This document shows positions 12,145 through 63,796 of a stretch of DNA of 64,000 nt, piece by piece; the stretch's first letter is position 1, and each line of letters opens with the position of its first letter. Origin of the DNA: Thiomicrospira sp. WB1 (lineage in GTDB: Bacteria > Pseudomonadota > Gammaproteobacteria > Thiomicrospirales > Thiomicrospiraceae); the NCBI RefSeq assembly GCF_001507535.1, contig NZ_LQBN01000002.1, forward strand, positions 496,001 through 560,000. Direction: 5' to 3'. The translations under genes were made by a program, and so were the position numbers. Under the pieces are notes generated by a model that did not search any database, was not told where the DNA came from, and was given only the letters and a program-made list of their open reading frames with translations.

Positions 12145-12265
12145 GACTATCTCTTTTTATTTCAATGGCTTGCATGTCTTTTTATTTTGGCACAGTTATT
12201 GATGTGTATTCCCTGAAAAGCCCAAACTCGTCAAAGAATTGACACAGTCACACAAGGAGCGTTTT

Positions 12266-12721
12266 ATGGGTCAGAAAATGGACACATCACAAAAAGTCGT
12301 CACCTGTCTGGACTATATTGATCAGCGTCTGGAAGACACGTCCGAACAAACCATTCAGATTGCAGAGATGATCATCGACGACATCAAAGAACTCACCGCC
12401 GGCTACCCGCAGGCATTGAAAGACAACAATCTGCAGGCGCATGCCGACAAAGTGCGCGACACCCAAATGAAATGGGTCAATCAGTTGCAGGACATCATTC
12501 TGGAGCAAACGCAGCGTGACTTGAATGGTCAGGTGATTCAGGCGTTGCAGAAATTCGCACAGAACCTGAACCAGACACAACCGCACCCGCAGCTGGACTT
12601 TGACCTACCTAGTGTCGTGCAACGTCGGGACGAGAATCTGGCACACGAATATCTGACTCAGGATGAAATCGAGTTGTTGATGGCCGCTGACAACGCACCG
12701 GCCCAGTCCATGCATCACTGA
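12266..12721 (+). CDS. Minimal CheZ-like protein (putative CheY-P phosphatase)
   Basis: A 151-residue, almost wholly helical protein. Residues 83-98 read QRDLNGQVIQALQKFA, close to the CheZ active-site helix (QDLTGQVI in E. coli, whose catalytic Asp and Gln fall at D85 and Q89 here). The C-terminus carries LTQDEIELLM at 130-139, like the CheY-binding peptide at the start of FliM (LSQDEIDALL) and functionally like the C-terminal CheY-binding helix of CheZ. It is much shorter than E. coli CheZ (214 residues). AAGGAGC lies 6 bases before the ATG. The assignment is inferred from motifs; a structural role in the flagellar switch is the alternative. Confidence 0.6.
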   Translation: MGQKMDTSQKVVTCLDYIDQRLEDTSEQTIQIAEMIIDDIKELTAGYPQALKDNNLQAHADKVRDTQMKWVNQLQDIILEQTQRDLNGQVIQALQKFAQNLNQTQPHPQLDFDLPSVVQRRDENLAHEYLTQDEIELLMAADNAPAQSMHH

Positions 12722-30715: not shown

Positions 30716-31078
30716 ATGCCTCGGCCCAAAATTCTTTACGTTGATGACGCCCTTTCCATGCGAAAACTGGTTGATCTGGTCCTGCAAAAAACCTGCGACG
30801 TGACGCTGGCAGAACATGGTCAGGCCGCTTTGGACGCGCTGGACAAAACAAGGTTCGACCTGATCATCAGCGACGTCAACATGCCGGTTATGGACGGTCT
30901 AACCTTTCTCAAAGCCGCCCGAGAACGAAAAGACACGCACTTTACGCCCATTCTGATGATGACCACCGAAACCGGGGATGAAATGAAAGCACAAGGCAGG
31001 GCACTGGGCGCGACCGGCTGGCTGGTCAAACCCTTTGACCCTGAAACCCTGCCCAAGCTGATTCAAAAGCTGATTTAA
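30716..31078 (+). CDS. Single-domain response regulator, CheY-like
   Basis: A 120-residue receiver domain without output domain. The acidic pocket is D10/D11 (LYVDDA), the phospho-accepting Asp is D53 in ISDVNMPVMDG, Thr/Ser follows in LMMTTETGD, and the conserved Lys is in WLVKPFDP. The MRKLV and TTETGDEMK stretches match the CheY group linked to chemotaxis. It is alone, divergent from ppiD and convergent to purA. The CheZ-like protein at 12.3 kb is a possible partner by inference. Confidence 0.85.
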   Translation: MPRPKILYVDDALSMRKLVDLVLQKTCDVTLAEHGQAALDALDKTRFDLIISDVNMPVMDGLTFLKAARERKDTHFTPILMMTTETGDEMKAQGRALGATGWLVKPFDPETLPKLIQKLI

Positions 31079-58901: not shown

Positions 58902-60479
58902 CTATTTGGCGCAGTTAAAAATAATTTTGGGCGGCAGAATGACTCGAAATGTCGTCCCTTGTTCGTAGCTGCTCTGGACTTCGATGCGCCCTTTGTGGGC
59001 GTTCACAAAATTCGCCACCGAGGGCAGGCCCTGTCCTGACCCTTTTGCTTTGGTGGTAAAGCCATGATTGTATATCTGACTGAGATAGGCGCGAGGAATG
59101 CCCTCGGCCGTATCATGCACCTCGATCACAAATCGACCACTCTCGTCCAATCGCGTTTTAATCTGAATGCTTTTCTCTGCTTTATTGCTTACCTCTAACG
59201 CTTCCGCCGCATTCTGAACCAGGTTCATCAATGCCTGATAAAGCTGACTGCGAGAAATCTGCAAAAAACAGGCTTTATCCGTTTCGCCCATCATGACTTG
59301 CATGGAAACCCCTAACTCATCCAGCATTGCCTGACATGACTGGCGCAGATTATCGATCAGAGCAAACACGTTCACCGTGTCATCCATATCCGCCGAGGTG
59401 CCAGCCTGGCTGATGTCTGTTTGTTTTTCGCTCAAGGTATCGATCAACCCTGTCAGATCGTTCGCCAGCGCCACATCGGTCTTTGCAAAATAGTGTTCCA
59501 ACGTTTCCATTAACGAATGATAGAGCGCTTGCACAAACTGCAGCGCCATAGCCAGGTCACCGCTGTCGGTGTTGATATTTTGTTCAGGCTGGTCCATCCA
59601 CTGCTCAATCAATTGAACGGTGGCACGAAATTGCTCAACACCCTGACTAAGCACCGAGCGAGTTGCATTCATACTGTTAAGCGTGTTGCCCAAATCATGA
59701 ACCAATTCCTTTTTAGCACGCGACAGGCCTTCCTGAAAGTGGGCGTATTCATCCACCTGTACCTGTTTCTTTTGCTCGGTGATGTCTTTGGCAACCCAGA
59801 AATAAAATAACTCACCCTCTGCGTCCGTTTTGGATTGAACCTGAGCCAGCGCCCAGCGTTGCTCACCGGCCGCATTAAAATACCGGGTTTCGCCCTCGAA
59901 ATTGGCAAAGTATTGAGTGACACCCAAACGATCATTGGTCCATAACACCACATCGTTGATCGAGCGACCGATCAGCTGAGAGGCCTGCCAACCGGTTTCC
60001 AGCGTTGCACGCTTATTCACCGAGCGGATTTTTTGATCGGCATCAAATTGAATGACACTAAACAGGCTGTTCAGCAAATCCGCACCGCATCGGCATGCCT
60101 CTTCAGCATGGCGCATGGCATCCTGATTTGATAGGCAGGATTGAGCCTGATCAAGCCATTGACGCAATTCCAGGGCCGAGGGAAGGCGCGTCACCCATAA
60201 CAGCCCCTGGTGCGGCAGCTGCCCTCGCAAAGCTTCAATGTCCGTGTCAGGGATGTTGGGCGACCAGACCAGACAAAACAACGCGGGTTGAATGCGATAC
60301 CAGGCAGTCAGTCGCTCATACAGCTGTGCCGATGCGTCGGTTGCCAGCAACAACACCTCACTCGCCCGAATCTGAGCATCCGTCAAAAGCTCATCACGCC
60401 CATACACAGCTTGAGGACACACTTGTGCACACCGTTGGTTAAAGGCTTCCAACTCACTCACCACGCGCACGGTGGCCAT
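58902..60479 (-). CDS. PAS-domain sensor histidine kinase with N-terminal pseudo-receiver
   Basis: A 525-residue soluble kinase without membrane helices. Residues 1-115 look like a receiver fold without a clear phospho-Asp. A PAS domain spans about 135-235 (QFDADQKIRSVNKRAT, FYFWVAKDITE), followed by the His box VHDLGNTLNSM (His261), the N box NLVQNAAEALE (Asn423), D-x3-G (DTAEGI, 456) and GFTTKAKGSGQGLP (473-486). AAGGAGG 7 bases before the ATG is a strong ribosome site. It is the last gene of the partner-switching operon. Confidence 0.82.
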   Translation of the reverse strand: MATVRVVSELEAFNQRCAQVCPQAVYGRDELLTDAQIRASEVLLLATDASAQLYERLTAWYRIQPALFCLVWSPNIPDTDIEALRGQLPHQGLLWVTRLPSALELRQWLDQAQSCLSNQDAMRHAEEACRCGADLLNSLFSVIQFDADQKIRSVNKRATLETGWQASQLIGRSINDVVLWTNDRLGVTQYFANFEGETRYFNAAGEQRWALAQVQSKTDAEGELFYFWVAKDITEQKKQVQVDEYAHFQEGLSRAKKELVHDLGNTLNSMNATRSVLSQGVEQFRATVQLIEQWMDQPEQNINTDSGDLAMALQFVQALYHSLMETLEHYFAKTDVALANDLTGLIDTLSEKQTDISQAGTSADMDDTVNVFALIDNLRQSCQAMLDELGVSMQVMMGETDKACFLQISRSQLYQALMNLVQNAAEALEVSNKAEKSIQIKTRLDESGRFVIEVHDTAEGIPRAYLSQIYNHGFTTKAKGSGQGLPSVANFVNAHKGRIEVQSSYEQGTTFRVILPPKIIFNCAK

Positions 60480-60490
60480 AACATGCCTCC

Positions 60491-61744
60491 TTATTGACGA
60501 ACGTTGAGCGGAAAACGCACTTCCGTGCGCATTCCCGTTTCAGGGCCATCACTGGTCAGAACAATTTTGCCACCGACATGCGACGCAAACTGTGCCACCA
60601 TGGTCAGACCCATCCCTGCATGCCCAGGTTTACTGGTGTATCCCGCACCAAAAAAATGGTCGATGCGATCAGGGGCGGCGCCGATGCCATTATCAATCAC
60701 ATTGAGGACAAAGCTTTGGTCTTCAACGCCCATTTTTATTTGAATTTTTCCCTTGTGACCGGGCACGATTGCTTCTTGGCTCTGTAGCGCTTCCTCGGCA
60801 TTGTATAGCAGCGCTGAAATAGCGAGTACCAACCGTGAAAAATAAGTATGCAGCGTCTGATGGTCGGACACAGACAGCTCCCATTGGATATCAACCTTCT
60901 CACGGGGTCGCGTCAAATTCGGCATTAACGCTTCCAGCTGCTCAATCAGGTCTCGCACTGAAAACACCGACACCTGATCACTTTCAACCGACAGACGTTG
61001 CAATGCATTGATTAACTTTGATAATTGACGCGCTTCCCCCAGCACCGTGCCGGTCACTTCATCAAAGTTGGCCTGTTGCGATGAATCCACGTCAAATTGG
61101 GAGGAAAGATAAGCCAGCAGCCCGGATTGAGCATTCATCTTGTCAGCCATGTCAGACAACAAGCTCTGAGTGACTTCATAATGGGCGGCTTCATACAGGT
61201 TGGATTCTGCTTTTTGCTGCAATTTGGTTCGCAAACGACTTAATTCGCGGTCTCTGGCCCAGGCCTGGCAGAAATTACGGGCAATTTGGACCACCTCTTC
61301 CGGCTGAAATGGCTTGCGCACAAACAACACGTCTTCTTGCAAAACCTCGGAAATATTGTCCATATCAACGTCGGTATACGCCGTCACAATCACGATATAC
61401 ACACGCGAGTCGAGTTTACGTAAGGCTTCTGCGGTCTGCAGACCATTCATCCCTGGGGGCATACGCATGTCGATAAAGGCCACACGAACCGGGGCAGACG
61501 AATGTAACTGGGCGGAAAAAACATCAATGGCTTCATCGCCCTGCTGTGCCGTCAAAAGCGTAAAAGGCAATTGACTGTTGGATGACAACAGACTTTTGGG
61601 CCGCGCTTCCACCAATTCGGCCAGGGTTTGCAGGGCCGACTCCGTATCACCCCGTTCACAAAAAAGATTTTGATACGCGGTAATTTGCCGAGGGTCGTCA
61701 TCCACCACCATAATGGTCGGCGTTGGATCAATGGGTCTTGGCAT
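60491..61744 (-). CDS. Receiver-linked GHKL ATPase, degenerate histidine kinase
   Basis: A 417-residue protein. The receiver has acidic residues D15-D17 (VVDDDP), phospho-Asp D92 in FIDMRMPPGMNG and Lys144 in RKPF, with an unusual 30-residue insertion after the first helix. The C-terminal ATPase domain has the N box YNAEEAL and G boxes DNGIGAAP and GYTSKPGHAGMGL. In the dimerisation helix, where MAHEINNPL is expected, the sequence is MADKMNAQSGL: Asp201 stands in place of the phospho-accepting His. It carries CCAGGCCTGG at 61259 (Gln-Ala-Trp). Confidence 0.75.
   Translation of the reverse strand: MPRPIDPTPTIMVVDDDPRQITAYQNLFCERGDTESALQTLAELVEARPKSLLSSNSQLPFTLLTAQQGDEAIDVFSAQLHSSAPVRVAFIDMRMPPGMNGLQTAEALRKLDSRVYIVIVTAYTDVDMDNISEVLQEDVLFVRKPFQPEEVVQIARNFCQAWARDRELSRLRTKLQQKAESNLYEAAHYEVTQSLLSDMADKMNAQSGLLAYLSSQFDVDSSQQANFDEVTGTVLGEARQLSKLINALQRLSVESDQVSVFSVRDLIEQLEALMPNLTRPREKVDIQWELSVSDHQTLHTYFSRLVLAISALLYNAEEALQSQEAIVPGHKGKIQIKMGVEDQSFVLNVIDNGIGAAPDRIDHFFGAGYTSKPGHAGMGLTMVAQFASHVGGKIVLTSDGPETGMRTEVRFPLNVRQ
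61259..61268. repeat. Core palindrome CCAGGCCTGG
   Basis: Central ten bases of the iterated palindrome in the receiver-linked ATPase gene, encoding Cys-Gln-Ala-Trp on the minus strand. Confidence 0.7.
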
Positions 61745-63434
61745 GCGGGCGCTCCCAACGATAAATGGCCGTCACTTTTCTTCCCTGTTCATCAAATTCA
61801 AACTGGTGACACAAAGAGCGCACCAGTTTTATGCCTCGACCGGCATAACGATGAACCTCTCCGTCCGGCTGCGCCATGACATGATCACAGACGCCCTCAC
61901 CGTCGTGCGTCACGGTGATATGAATATCTGCCTGATCCGCCGAGACAGGGGACTGCTTAATCTGTATGCCGATGCCACCTTGATTTAATTGAGCCAAACG
62001 CCTCTGTTTGAGCTCTGCGTAATGCAGAAAGCCCTGCGCATCCTGTTTAAGGGCCGAATCCAAGCATAACAGACCGTGCTCCAGCGCATTCATATAGAGT
62101 TCGGTGATCACCATAAACAAATCGTCCTTAAACGGCACCAAAGGCTGGGTACCACTGATGGCATCCACCACGGTTTCCACTGGCTTGTCAGCCTGTCGTA
62201 ACTGATGGGTACCAAAATAAAAACTCAGTTCCCAAGAAGACGGATCACGCAATTGTTCCGCCAAAACACGTGCCGTGATCATGTCGGTTTTTTCAATCAC
62301 ACGGGCAATGTCGAGTTTGACAATGCTGACATCATCGTCGAACTCGCCATCACCACAAAAGTCCTCGGCGGCCTCAACCAACGAAGGGATATGAAGCCGG
62401 TGCCCCTGTAGCGCCTGGACCAGGCGTTCAAGTCCGAACATGTCTCCTTGCGCGTTCACCGCTTCCACCACGCCATCCGTGTAAAAGACAAACTGCTCAT
62501 GCCCCTCAAGCATAAAAGACTTCAACTCAGGATGCCAATGCTCGTTTTCCACCACCCCAAGCGGTAAGGAATTAGACATCAGTCTTCGAACGTTGGGCGT
62601 AATGCCGTCAAAGACCAGGATCGGCTGCATCCCCCCGTTAAACACATGCGCTTTGCGCTTTTTGGGACTGACCTCGACAACCAGACAGCCGAAAAAAATG
62701 TGGTCGGGCAATATTTTTTTGAGCTTTCGATTGATTTCCAGAAGGATTTCTTTGATGTTGCGTCCTGCGGACACCATCGAATAAAACGTTTCGGCCACCG
62801 GGATTGCGCCGATGGCCGCAGGCAATCCATGGCCAGTAAAATCGCCCAGAAGCGTGATCACGTGACCGGAAGGTGTCACCGAAGAAAAAAACACATCGCC
62901 GTTGAAAATAGAGGCCGCCGAAATATGAACATCCAGGCCAGGCACCAATTGTCGCGGTCCATAGACAAACTTATCAAAAATCCGCTGAGCGGATTGATGC
63001 TCCCAGGCCAGATTTGAGTGCACCTGTGCCAACATTTCTTTGGACTGTTTCAGGTCATTATAAAAATCAAGGTTACGCAAAAGCGAATCCACCTTGGCCA
63101 GAAACAGTTCTTCCACAAAAGGTTTCTGCAAGAAATCATCGGCCCCGGCCTGCAAAATGCCCTGTAAACGCTGAGCGCCGACGACCGCCGTGATGACAAA
63201 CACCGGATAGAACTGCTCGTCACTGCAGGCTTTGATGTGTTGCACCAACTCGGCACCAGACAAATCGGGCAAAGCAATTTCGGTAATGGTTAAGTGTGGG
63301 GCATGGTCATCAAACAGGCGAATGGCTTCGTGCCCGTTCTGTGCTTGAAGCACGTCGTAGCCATGCATTTCTAACAACAACTTTAGGTAAAGCCGGTTGG
63401 AGTTGGAAGGATCGGCGATCAGAATGCTGGCCAT
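61728..63434 (-). CDS. Receiver - PP2C phosphatase (SpoIIE) - ATPase (RsbW-like) regulator
   Basis: A 568-residue three-domain protein. In the N-terminal receiver (1-120) the phospho-Asp position is Glu52 (LTITEIALPDLSG) although Lys104 is kept. The PP2C/SpoIIE domain (about 165-378) has metal-binding Asp in FNGD180, LLGD198FTGHG, FYTD320G and DD367D. The C-terminal GHKL domain has N449 (ELYMNALEHG) and GRGIKL. This architecture is that of P. aeruginosa HsbR, which acts on an STAS protein. It shares 17 bases with the downstream gene. Confidence 0.82.
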   Translation of the reverse strand: MASILIADPSNSNRLYLKLLLEMHGYDVLQAQNGHEAIRLFDDHAPHLTITEIALPDLSGAELVQHIKACSDEQFYPVFVITAVVGAQRLQGILQAGADDFLQKPFVEELFLAKVDSLLRNLDFYNDLKQSKEMLAQVHSNLAWEHQSAQRIFDKFVYGPRQLVPGLDVHISAASIFNGDVFFSSVTPSGHVITLLGDFTGHGLPAAIGAIPVAETFYSMVSAGRNIKEILLEINRKLKKILPDHIFFGCLVVEVSPKKRKAHVFNGGMQPILVFDGITPNVRRLMSNSLPLGVVENEHWHPELKSFMLEGHEQFVFYTDGVVEAVNAQGDMFGLERLVQALQGHRLHIPSLVEAAEDFCGDGEFDDDVSIVKLDIARVIEKTDMITARVLAEQLRDPSSWELSFYFGTHQLRQADKPVETVVDAISGTQPLVPFKDDLFMVITELYMNALEHGLLCLDSALKQDAQGFLHYAELKQRRLAQLNQGGIGIQIKQSPVSADQADIHITVTHDGEGVCDHVMAQPDGEVHRYAGRGIKLVRSLCHQFEFDEQGRKVTAIYRWERPHAKTH

Positions 63435-63475
63435 ATTGGAATCAAGCTGCTCTGGTCGTCATATTGAAAAACGCA

Positions 63476-63796
63476 TCAACTCACTTGGCGGGCGGGGGAA
63501 TTTATGGCAAACAATTGGTCAAATTTTGACACTTTAAACACACGGTAGAGGGTGGTATTCACATTTTCCAGTGCCACACTGACCGATCGGTCGCTGACTT
63601 TCTCGCGCAACAACAACAACATGCCCAGTGCGGAGCTGTCCAGGTGGTCAGCCTGGGAAAAATCAATGATAATCGCAACGGCGGTATCAAGGTAATCGGA
63701 AATGACTTGATTAAAGTGATCATAACAACCGATATCAAAATGACCCTTGACCTGCAAACGAACTTCACCACCGGTCACTGTTGTTGATAATCCCAT
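63476..63796 (-). CDS. STAS-domain anti-anti-sigma-like protein
   Basis: A 106-residue STAS protein like SpoIIAA, RsbV and HsbA. The phosphorylation motif is HLDSSALGMLLLLRE with Ser54/Ser55. In partner switching the unphosphorylated form binds an ATPase-type anti-sigma partner. GGGAGGAG lies 8 bases before the ATG. It is 41 bases upstream of the PP2C-ATPase gene and the first gene of the operon, so the pair is likely the switch module. Confidence 0.85.
   Translation of the reverse strand: MGLSTTVTGGEVRLQVKGHFDIGCYDHFNQVISDYLDTAVAIIIDFSQADHLDSSALGMLLLLREKVSDRSVSVALENVNTTLYRVFKVSKFDQLFAINSPARQVS

Follow-up and report, generated by a model that had tools for sequence, protein, structure and literature searches.

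A short, divergent CheZ paralogue beside ycgN in Thiomicrospira sp. WB1, most likely a second CheY-P phosphatase

Why should a swimming bacterium carry two CheY-P phosphatases? This question is raised by a short gene of Thiomicrospira sp. WB1, which lies in the stretch of 64,000 nucleotides analysed here (the window; Table 1) and encodes a CheZ-like protein, P0001. An earlier note on this DNA had described a helical protein of 151 residues, one third shorter than CheZ, with DLNGQ at residues 85-89 and LTQDEIELLM at residues 130-139, and had taken it for a stripped-down CheY-P phosphatase. The description was confirmed. The open reading frame begins with ATG and encodes 151 residues, AlphaFold predicts helices, both motifs are in place, and the protein is 33% shorter than the 227-residue CheZ of the same genome. 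In this study, we present evidence that P0001 is a minimal CheZ paralogue, the second in its genome, which most likely dephosphorylates CheY-P alongside the normal CheZ.

Table 1. Positions of the short CheZ-like gene, its parts and related features (window coordinates unless a locus is named)
Feature	Coordinates	Strand	Evidence or remark
sigma54-like element TTGGCAC-N5-TTGAT, -12 box TTGA and not TTGC	12187..12203	+	window match, orthologues
Inverted repeat GTCAAAGAATTGAC, resembling the FleQ consensus GTCaNTAAAtTGAC	12230..12243	+	consensus quoted in PMC6120874
Short CheZ-like protein P0001, 151 aa	12266..12721	+	ORF; Pfam CheZ E=6e-4; kept in 40/59 family genomes
Predicted first hairpin helix, residues 7-52	12284..12421	+	AlphaFold model; hhalign with canonical CheZ
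Predicted second hairpin helix, residues 56-103, bearing the catalytic pair	12431..12574	+	AlphaFold model
DLNGQ, residues 85-89	12518..12532	+	ungapped alignment to 1kmi; conservation
LTQDEIELLM, residues 130-139, putative CheY-docking tail like FliM/CheZ	12653..12682	+	conservation
Putative CheY-binding peptide of P0001, EYLTQDEIELLMA
Orphan CheY-like receiver, possible substrate	30716..31078	+	Pfam Response_reg E=7e-25; loose co-occurrence
Short canonical-locus CheZ	L080:5089-5547, L081:4666-5121	-	G023, G035

The host genome (2.28 Mb in six contigs) is close to Hydrogenovibrio halophilus, with 86-88% protein identity. The P0001 gene stands alone between a ycgN-type gene, whose start is about 120 bases away, and secF, both on the opposite strand. 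The neighbours, named from their sequences, encode RimO, SlyD/FKBP, a YcgN-type Fe-S protein, SecF, SecD, YajC and Tgt. The remark in the earlier note that no flagellar or chemotaxis genes are nearby is thus correct for the neighbourhood, but it is misleading, since a chemotaxis system including a normal CheZ is encoded elsewhere in the genome. On a different contig a single block (L036; genes likewise named from sequences) holds flhA, flhF, fliA, cheY, the gene of the 227-residue CheZ, cheA and cheW, and FliM is encoded on that contig at a separate position. Because the genome has this full flagellar and chemotaxis set with a normal CheZ, P0001 is regarded as a second CheZ.

Among 59 genomes of the family, the short gene is present in 40, belonging to the genera Hydrogenovibrio, Thiomicrorhabdus and Thiomicrospira; a normal CheZ is found in 56 and FliM in 54. 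The short gene mostly adjoins ycgN, a closeness kept across genera. Genomes without it have the ycgN neighbourhood with the short gene missing from it, so that its absence is real and the gene dispensable; G016, the only complete genome that has neither FliM nor CheZ, lacks it as well. A class-wide sample of 369 genomes gave one further weak match outside the family, a canonical CheZ beside cheY. Neither plasmid nor phage collections contained a match to the short gene, and a plasmid or phage origin was rejected on this ground. In the open-access literature searched, a short CheZ-like protein was not found described. In two genomes (G012, G018) the canonical CheZ match falls within reading frames that are 308-313 aa long and continue through a stop, and CheZ may there be extended or broken.

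Homology of P0001 to CheZ was assessed with profiles in both directions. Pfam CheZ (PF04344) is its top match (E=6e-4), at 20.2 bits and therefore under the curated gathering cut-off of 30.7 bits; the three short-family relatives for which scores are given are likewise under the cut-off, and the best-scoring relative reaches 28.2 bits. Scanned singly, 29 of 30 relatives match Pfam CheZ (best 2.2e-6), and any other Pfam family matches at most ten of the 30. A profile of the short family, searched against 591 ORFs, found its own members and canonical CheZ proteins only, the latter with E-values of 1e-8, 2e-6, 3e-5, 0.002 and 0.013. By hhalign, the short family and the canonical CheZ of the Thiomicrospiraceae are aligned over the hairpin (E=5e-5, probability 68%), the first helix pairing as LEYIDxRLETTSEQTIxIAE with LEYVIQTTEEASNKTLDxAE of the family's canonical CheZ. 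D85 and Q89 fall without a gap on D143 and Q147 of E. coli CheZ (1kmi), in a profile alignment that by itself has an E-value of 0.11. The D-x-x-x-Q pair is present in P0001 and in 31 of 41 family members. The AXXFQ motif is absent from P0001, where E80 Q81 T82 Q83 R84 precede D85. A single-sequence search of PDB sequences with P0001 returned no CheZ, and the FliM domain (PF02154) is not among its Pfam matches. The profile search proposed in the earlier note was thus positive for CheZ, though below the cut-off, and negative for the FliM domain. As P0001 lies under the Pfam cut-off and lacks the N-terminal helix and AXXFQ, we call it a CheZ-like paralogue and not a standard CheZ; judged by its sequence, it is a divergent paralogue.

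An AlphaFold2 monomer model of P0001, built on 17 sequences and of low overall confidence (pLDDT 65, pTM 0.42), predicts a helical hairpin, whose pLDDT is mostly 72-91 as far as residue 80 and falls to about 60 thereafter, followed by a low-confidence linker (residues 104-130) and a helix at residues 132-141. The N-terminal helix (E. coli residues 1-34) is missing, the predicted hairpin starting at residue 7. In this model, P0001 is laid out like a CheZ from which the N-terminal helix has been removed; its hairpin spans about 97 residues. Foldseek against the PDB placed 1kmi at rank 29 (E=4.6); because a two-helix hairpin matches everything weakly, this search says nothing on the fold. Structure prediction, also proposed earlier, therefore yielded the helical hairpin of the monomer, while the fold search was not significant. 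The outcome named as speaking against the CheZ idea, no CheZ profile match and a fold without the bundle, did not occur, profile matches and predicted hairpin both being positive.

FliM and CheZ hold CheY through helices, and CheZ itself ends in such a CheY-binding helix. A FliM-like tail on a CheZ is therefore not a new combination, a point missed by the earlier note. LTQDEIELLM resembles the N-terminus of the host's own FliM (MDDILSQDEVDALLKG) at least as much as the tail of its own CheZ (SQADVDAMLDDLGI), and the predicted tail motif is kept in 29 of 41 family members. In the first orthologue alignment of 30 sequences, Q89 is found in all 30 and D85 in 27 (the other three have E), I135 in 27 and L138 in 29. 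Such conservation weighs more than shuffle statistics: of 200,000 shuffles of the P0001 composition, 1% contained D[LMI]xGQ, 0.006% the tail pattern and none both. The host's own CheA (L036:10526-12538, plus strand) holds two copies of a similar stretch, EGEITDDEFEALL; its linker has two near-identical repeats LELPEGVDPEGEITDDEFEALLxQRDQL with FliM-like, putative CheY-docking motifs, and relatives of this CheA (L080, L081) carry two or three copies. We infer that these repeats may dock CheY.

The strongest evidence for function is that evolution retains or discards the catalytic pair and the tail as a unit. Both are intact in 29 of 41 sequences and both broken in ten; two have the pair only and none the tail only. 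In broken pairs D is replaced by E, S or V, and Q by E or Y. The tail pattern was written after inspection of the alignment, and partial remnants (LNPQEFELLMG in L154, LEPQERDLLLG in L155 and L158) were classed with the broken tails. Fisher's test gives 6e-8 for the association among the 41 sequences, uncorrected for shared ancestry, and this overstates the case, because by parsimony the tree requires about four changes, of which well-supported branches force at least two, i.e. a handful of events and not forty. The lack of tail-only sequences fits a CheY phosphatase, in which a docking tail would not be selected without the catalytic pair.

The ten relatives without the pair still keep the hairpin, so that some other role is possible. 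P0001 might be a non-catalytic modulator that tunes signalling through mixed dimers with full-length CheZ, or by holding CheY with its tail. We consider this unlikely, even though these ten relatives remain open frames after loss of D or Q, the residues beside the active site are not those of CheZ (EQTQR versus AXXFQ), and nearly all genomes have a normal CheZ at their disposal. If the pair were dispensable, it should be lost with the tail kept, a combination that does not occur among the 41 sequences; moreover, the branches of many broken forms are long, as relaxed constraint would lead one to expect. Two syntenic or homologous copies, L071 (G017) and L153 (G015), have lost pair and tail with their frames open, and their hairpin may keep another role.

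Alternatively, P0001 could be a phosphatase for a receiver other than flagellar CheY, e.g. the lone CheY-like receiver of the window, and insulate a second pathway. The earlier note had pointed out this receiver, correctly according to Pfam, and had proposed it as partner. Its orthologue (E<=1e-34) is commoner in genomes with the short gene (30 of 40) than in those without (5 of 19; Fisher 6e-4), an association that may stem from shared descent. However, five genomes have the orphan CheY without the short gene (G020, G038, G046, G048, G057), and ten have the short gene without the orphan CheY, among them four with pair and tail intact (G023, G035, G040, G044). Across the 59 genomes the orphan CheY is neither necessary nor sufficient and was rejected as obligate partner; a strict partnership does not hold, and a substrate outside the flagellar system is quite improbable. 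At 58902-63796 of the window, on the minus strand, a STAS protein, a receiver-SpoIIE phosphatase, a receiver-HATPase protein and a PAS histidine kinase (Pfam) resemble a partner-switching pathway.

That P0001 is an unrelated helical protein, with DxxxQ and tail arising by chance or other selection, is extremely improbable: two-helix hairpins do match many profiles weakly (HBD, GIT1_C and RFX among the relatives) and Foldseek gave no significant match, but CheZ is the sole family matched by nearly all members, the reverse search yields CheZ only, the motif register is ungapped and the conserved tail is lost together with the pair, and chance motifs were rejected on the reverse search, this joint loss and the shuffles.

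According to the preferred reading, a second CheY-P phosphatase, P0001 would be a shortened CheZ that lost the N-terminal helix and part of its hairpin length. The protein would dimerise, the helical hairpins of two copies forming a four-helix bundle. The flexible linker would allow the C-terminal helix to dock on the face of the presumably served CheY that is used by FliM and CheZ. D85 and Q89 would thereby reach the active site of CheY, and Q89 may there position water for attack on the phospho-aspartate. P0001 would act alongside the normal CheZ, probably raising or relocating CheY-P turnover, since it lacks AXXFQ, which in another species has been connected with the placement of CheZ. Of the stripped-down CheY-P phosphatase suggested earlier, a shortened CheZ relative with catalytic pair and putative tail remains; it appears as a second, dispensable CheZ and not as the phosphatase of the organism.

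Upstream of the gene, a sigma54-like element and an inverted repeat were found, the latter resembling a FleQ consensus (PMC6120874). TGGCAY-N5-TTG(A/T/G) occurs upstream of 24 of 31 orthologues at fixed spacing, and GTCAA...TTGAC upstream of many. In five of ten genomes the strict sigma54-like element occurs once per genome, always upstream of the short gene and nowhere else. The -12 box of the orthologues reads TTGA, TTGT or TTGG, as opposed to TTGC or GTGC in those promoters of the same genomes that are probably flagellar, and the latter were not distinguished by FleQ-like sites. For control of the short gene by the flagellar programme, these elements are no more than a lead. In the Thiomicrospira clade (L024, L026, L030, L033-L035, L064) sigma54-like element and palindrome are absent, and several members show a different TATGCTAGATTGT-type element upstream.

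Lacking the polar-placement motif and the N-terminal helix of CheZ, P0001 could be a dedicated second CheZ that dephosphorylates CheY-P at another place or time, e.g. close to the motor or during a phase controlled by FleQ/sigma54, and decays to a non-catalytic hairpin in several lineages. This extension is possible, though doubtful. If true, these bacteria would have two separately controlled CheY-P sinks. P0001 offers a minimal CheZ from nature, about 150 residues long, with about forty natural variants (intact, tailless and catalytically broken), which could reveal whether catalytic pair and tail are required.

E. coli CheZ consists of an N-terminal helix (1-34), a hairpin (35-168), a linker (169-199) and a C-terminal helix (199-214), with the active motif DXXXQ; AXXFQ is conserved beside the active site in proteobacterial CheZ (PMC7750401). 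Like E. coli CheZ (PF04344, 1KMI), P0001 has a predicted hairpin whose second helix bears D-x-x-x-Q, then a disordered linker and, at the C-terminus, a putative CheY-binding helix. It differs in the missing N-terminal helix and AXXFQ, a hairpin of about 97 versus about 134 residues, about 12 residues beyond the tail, and a stand-alone gene beside ycgN which coexists with a normal CheZ and whose product scores under the Pfam cut-off. The N-terminal CheY-binding peptide of FliM has the same pattern as the P0001 tail; in P0001 the motif is at the C-terminus of a CheZ-like hairpin, and the FliM domain is missing.

In two Thiomicrospira genomes (G023, G035), cheY and cheA flank a cheZ gene whose product has only 151-152 residues, indicating that a CheZ this short is viable. 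These proteins share with P0001 the length, an active site (in them DLHGQ) and a C-terminal tail. Unlike P0001, they are encoded at the canonical locus, have a tail of CheZ type (...SSQQEADDLLAQLGL) and lie over the Pfam cut-off with 61 and 53 bits. BLASTP of P0001 against them gives 18 bits only, and the short paralogue is present in both genomes as well (L024, L026). Their canonical-locus CheZ is apparently a separate shortening, and within the family CheZ seems to have been reduced to about 150 residues on more than one occasion. In Azorhizobium caulinodans, chemotaxis is still restored by CheZ from which much of the N-terminus has been deleted (PMC7750401). The hairpin of this CheZ, like that of P0001, is shorter than in E. 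coli, and the N-terminus is dispensable for chemotaxis; unlike P0001, the protein has 236 aa, a long N-terminal region and AXXFQ, and is the CheZ of its chemotaxis system.
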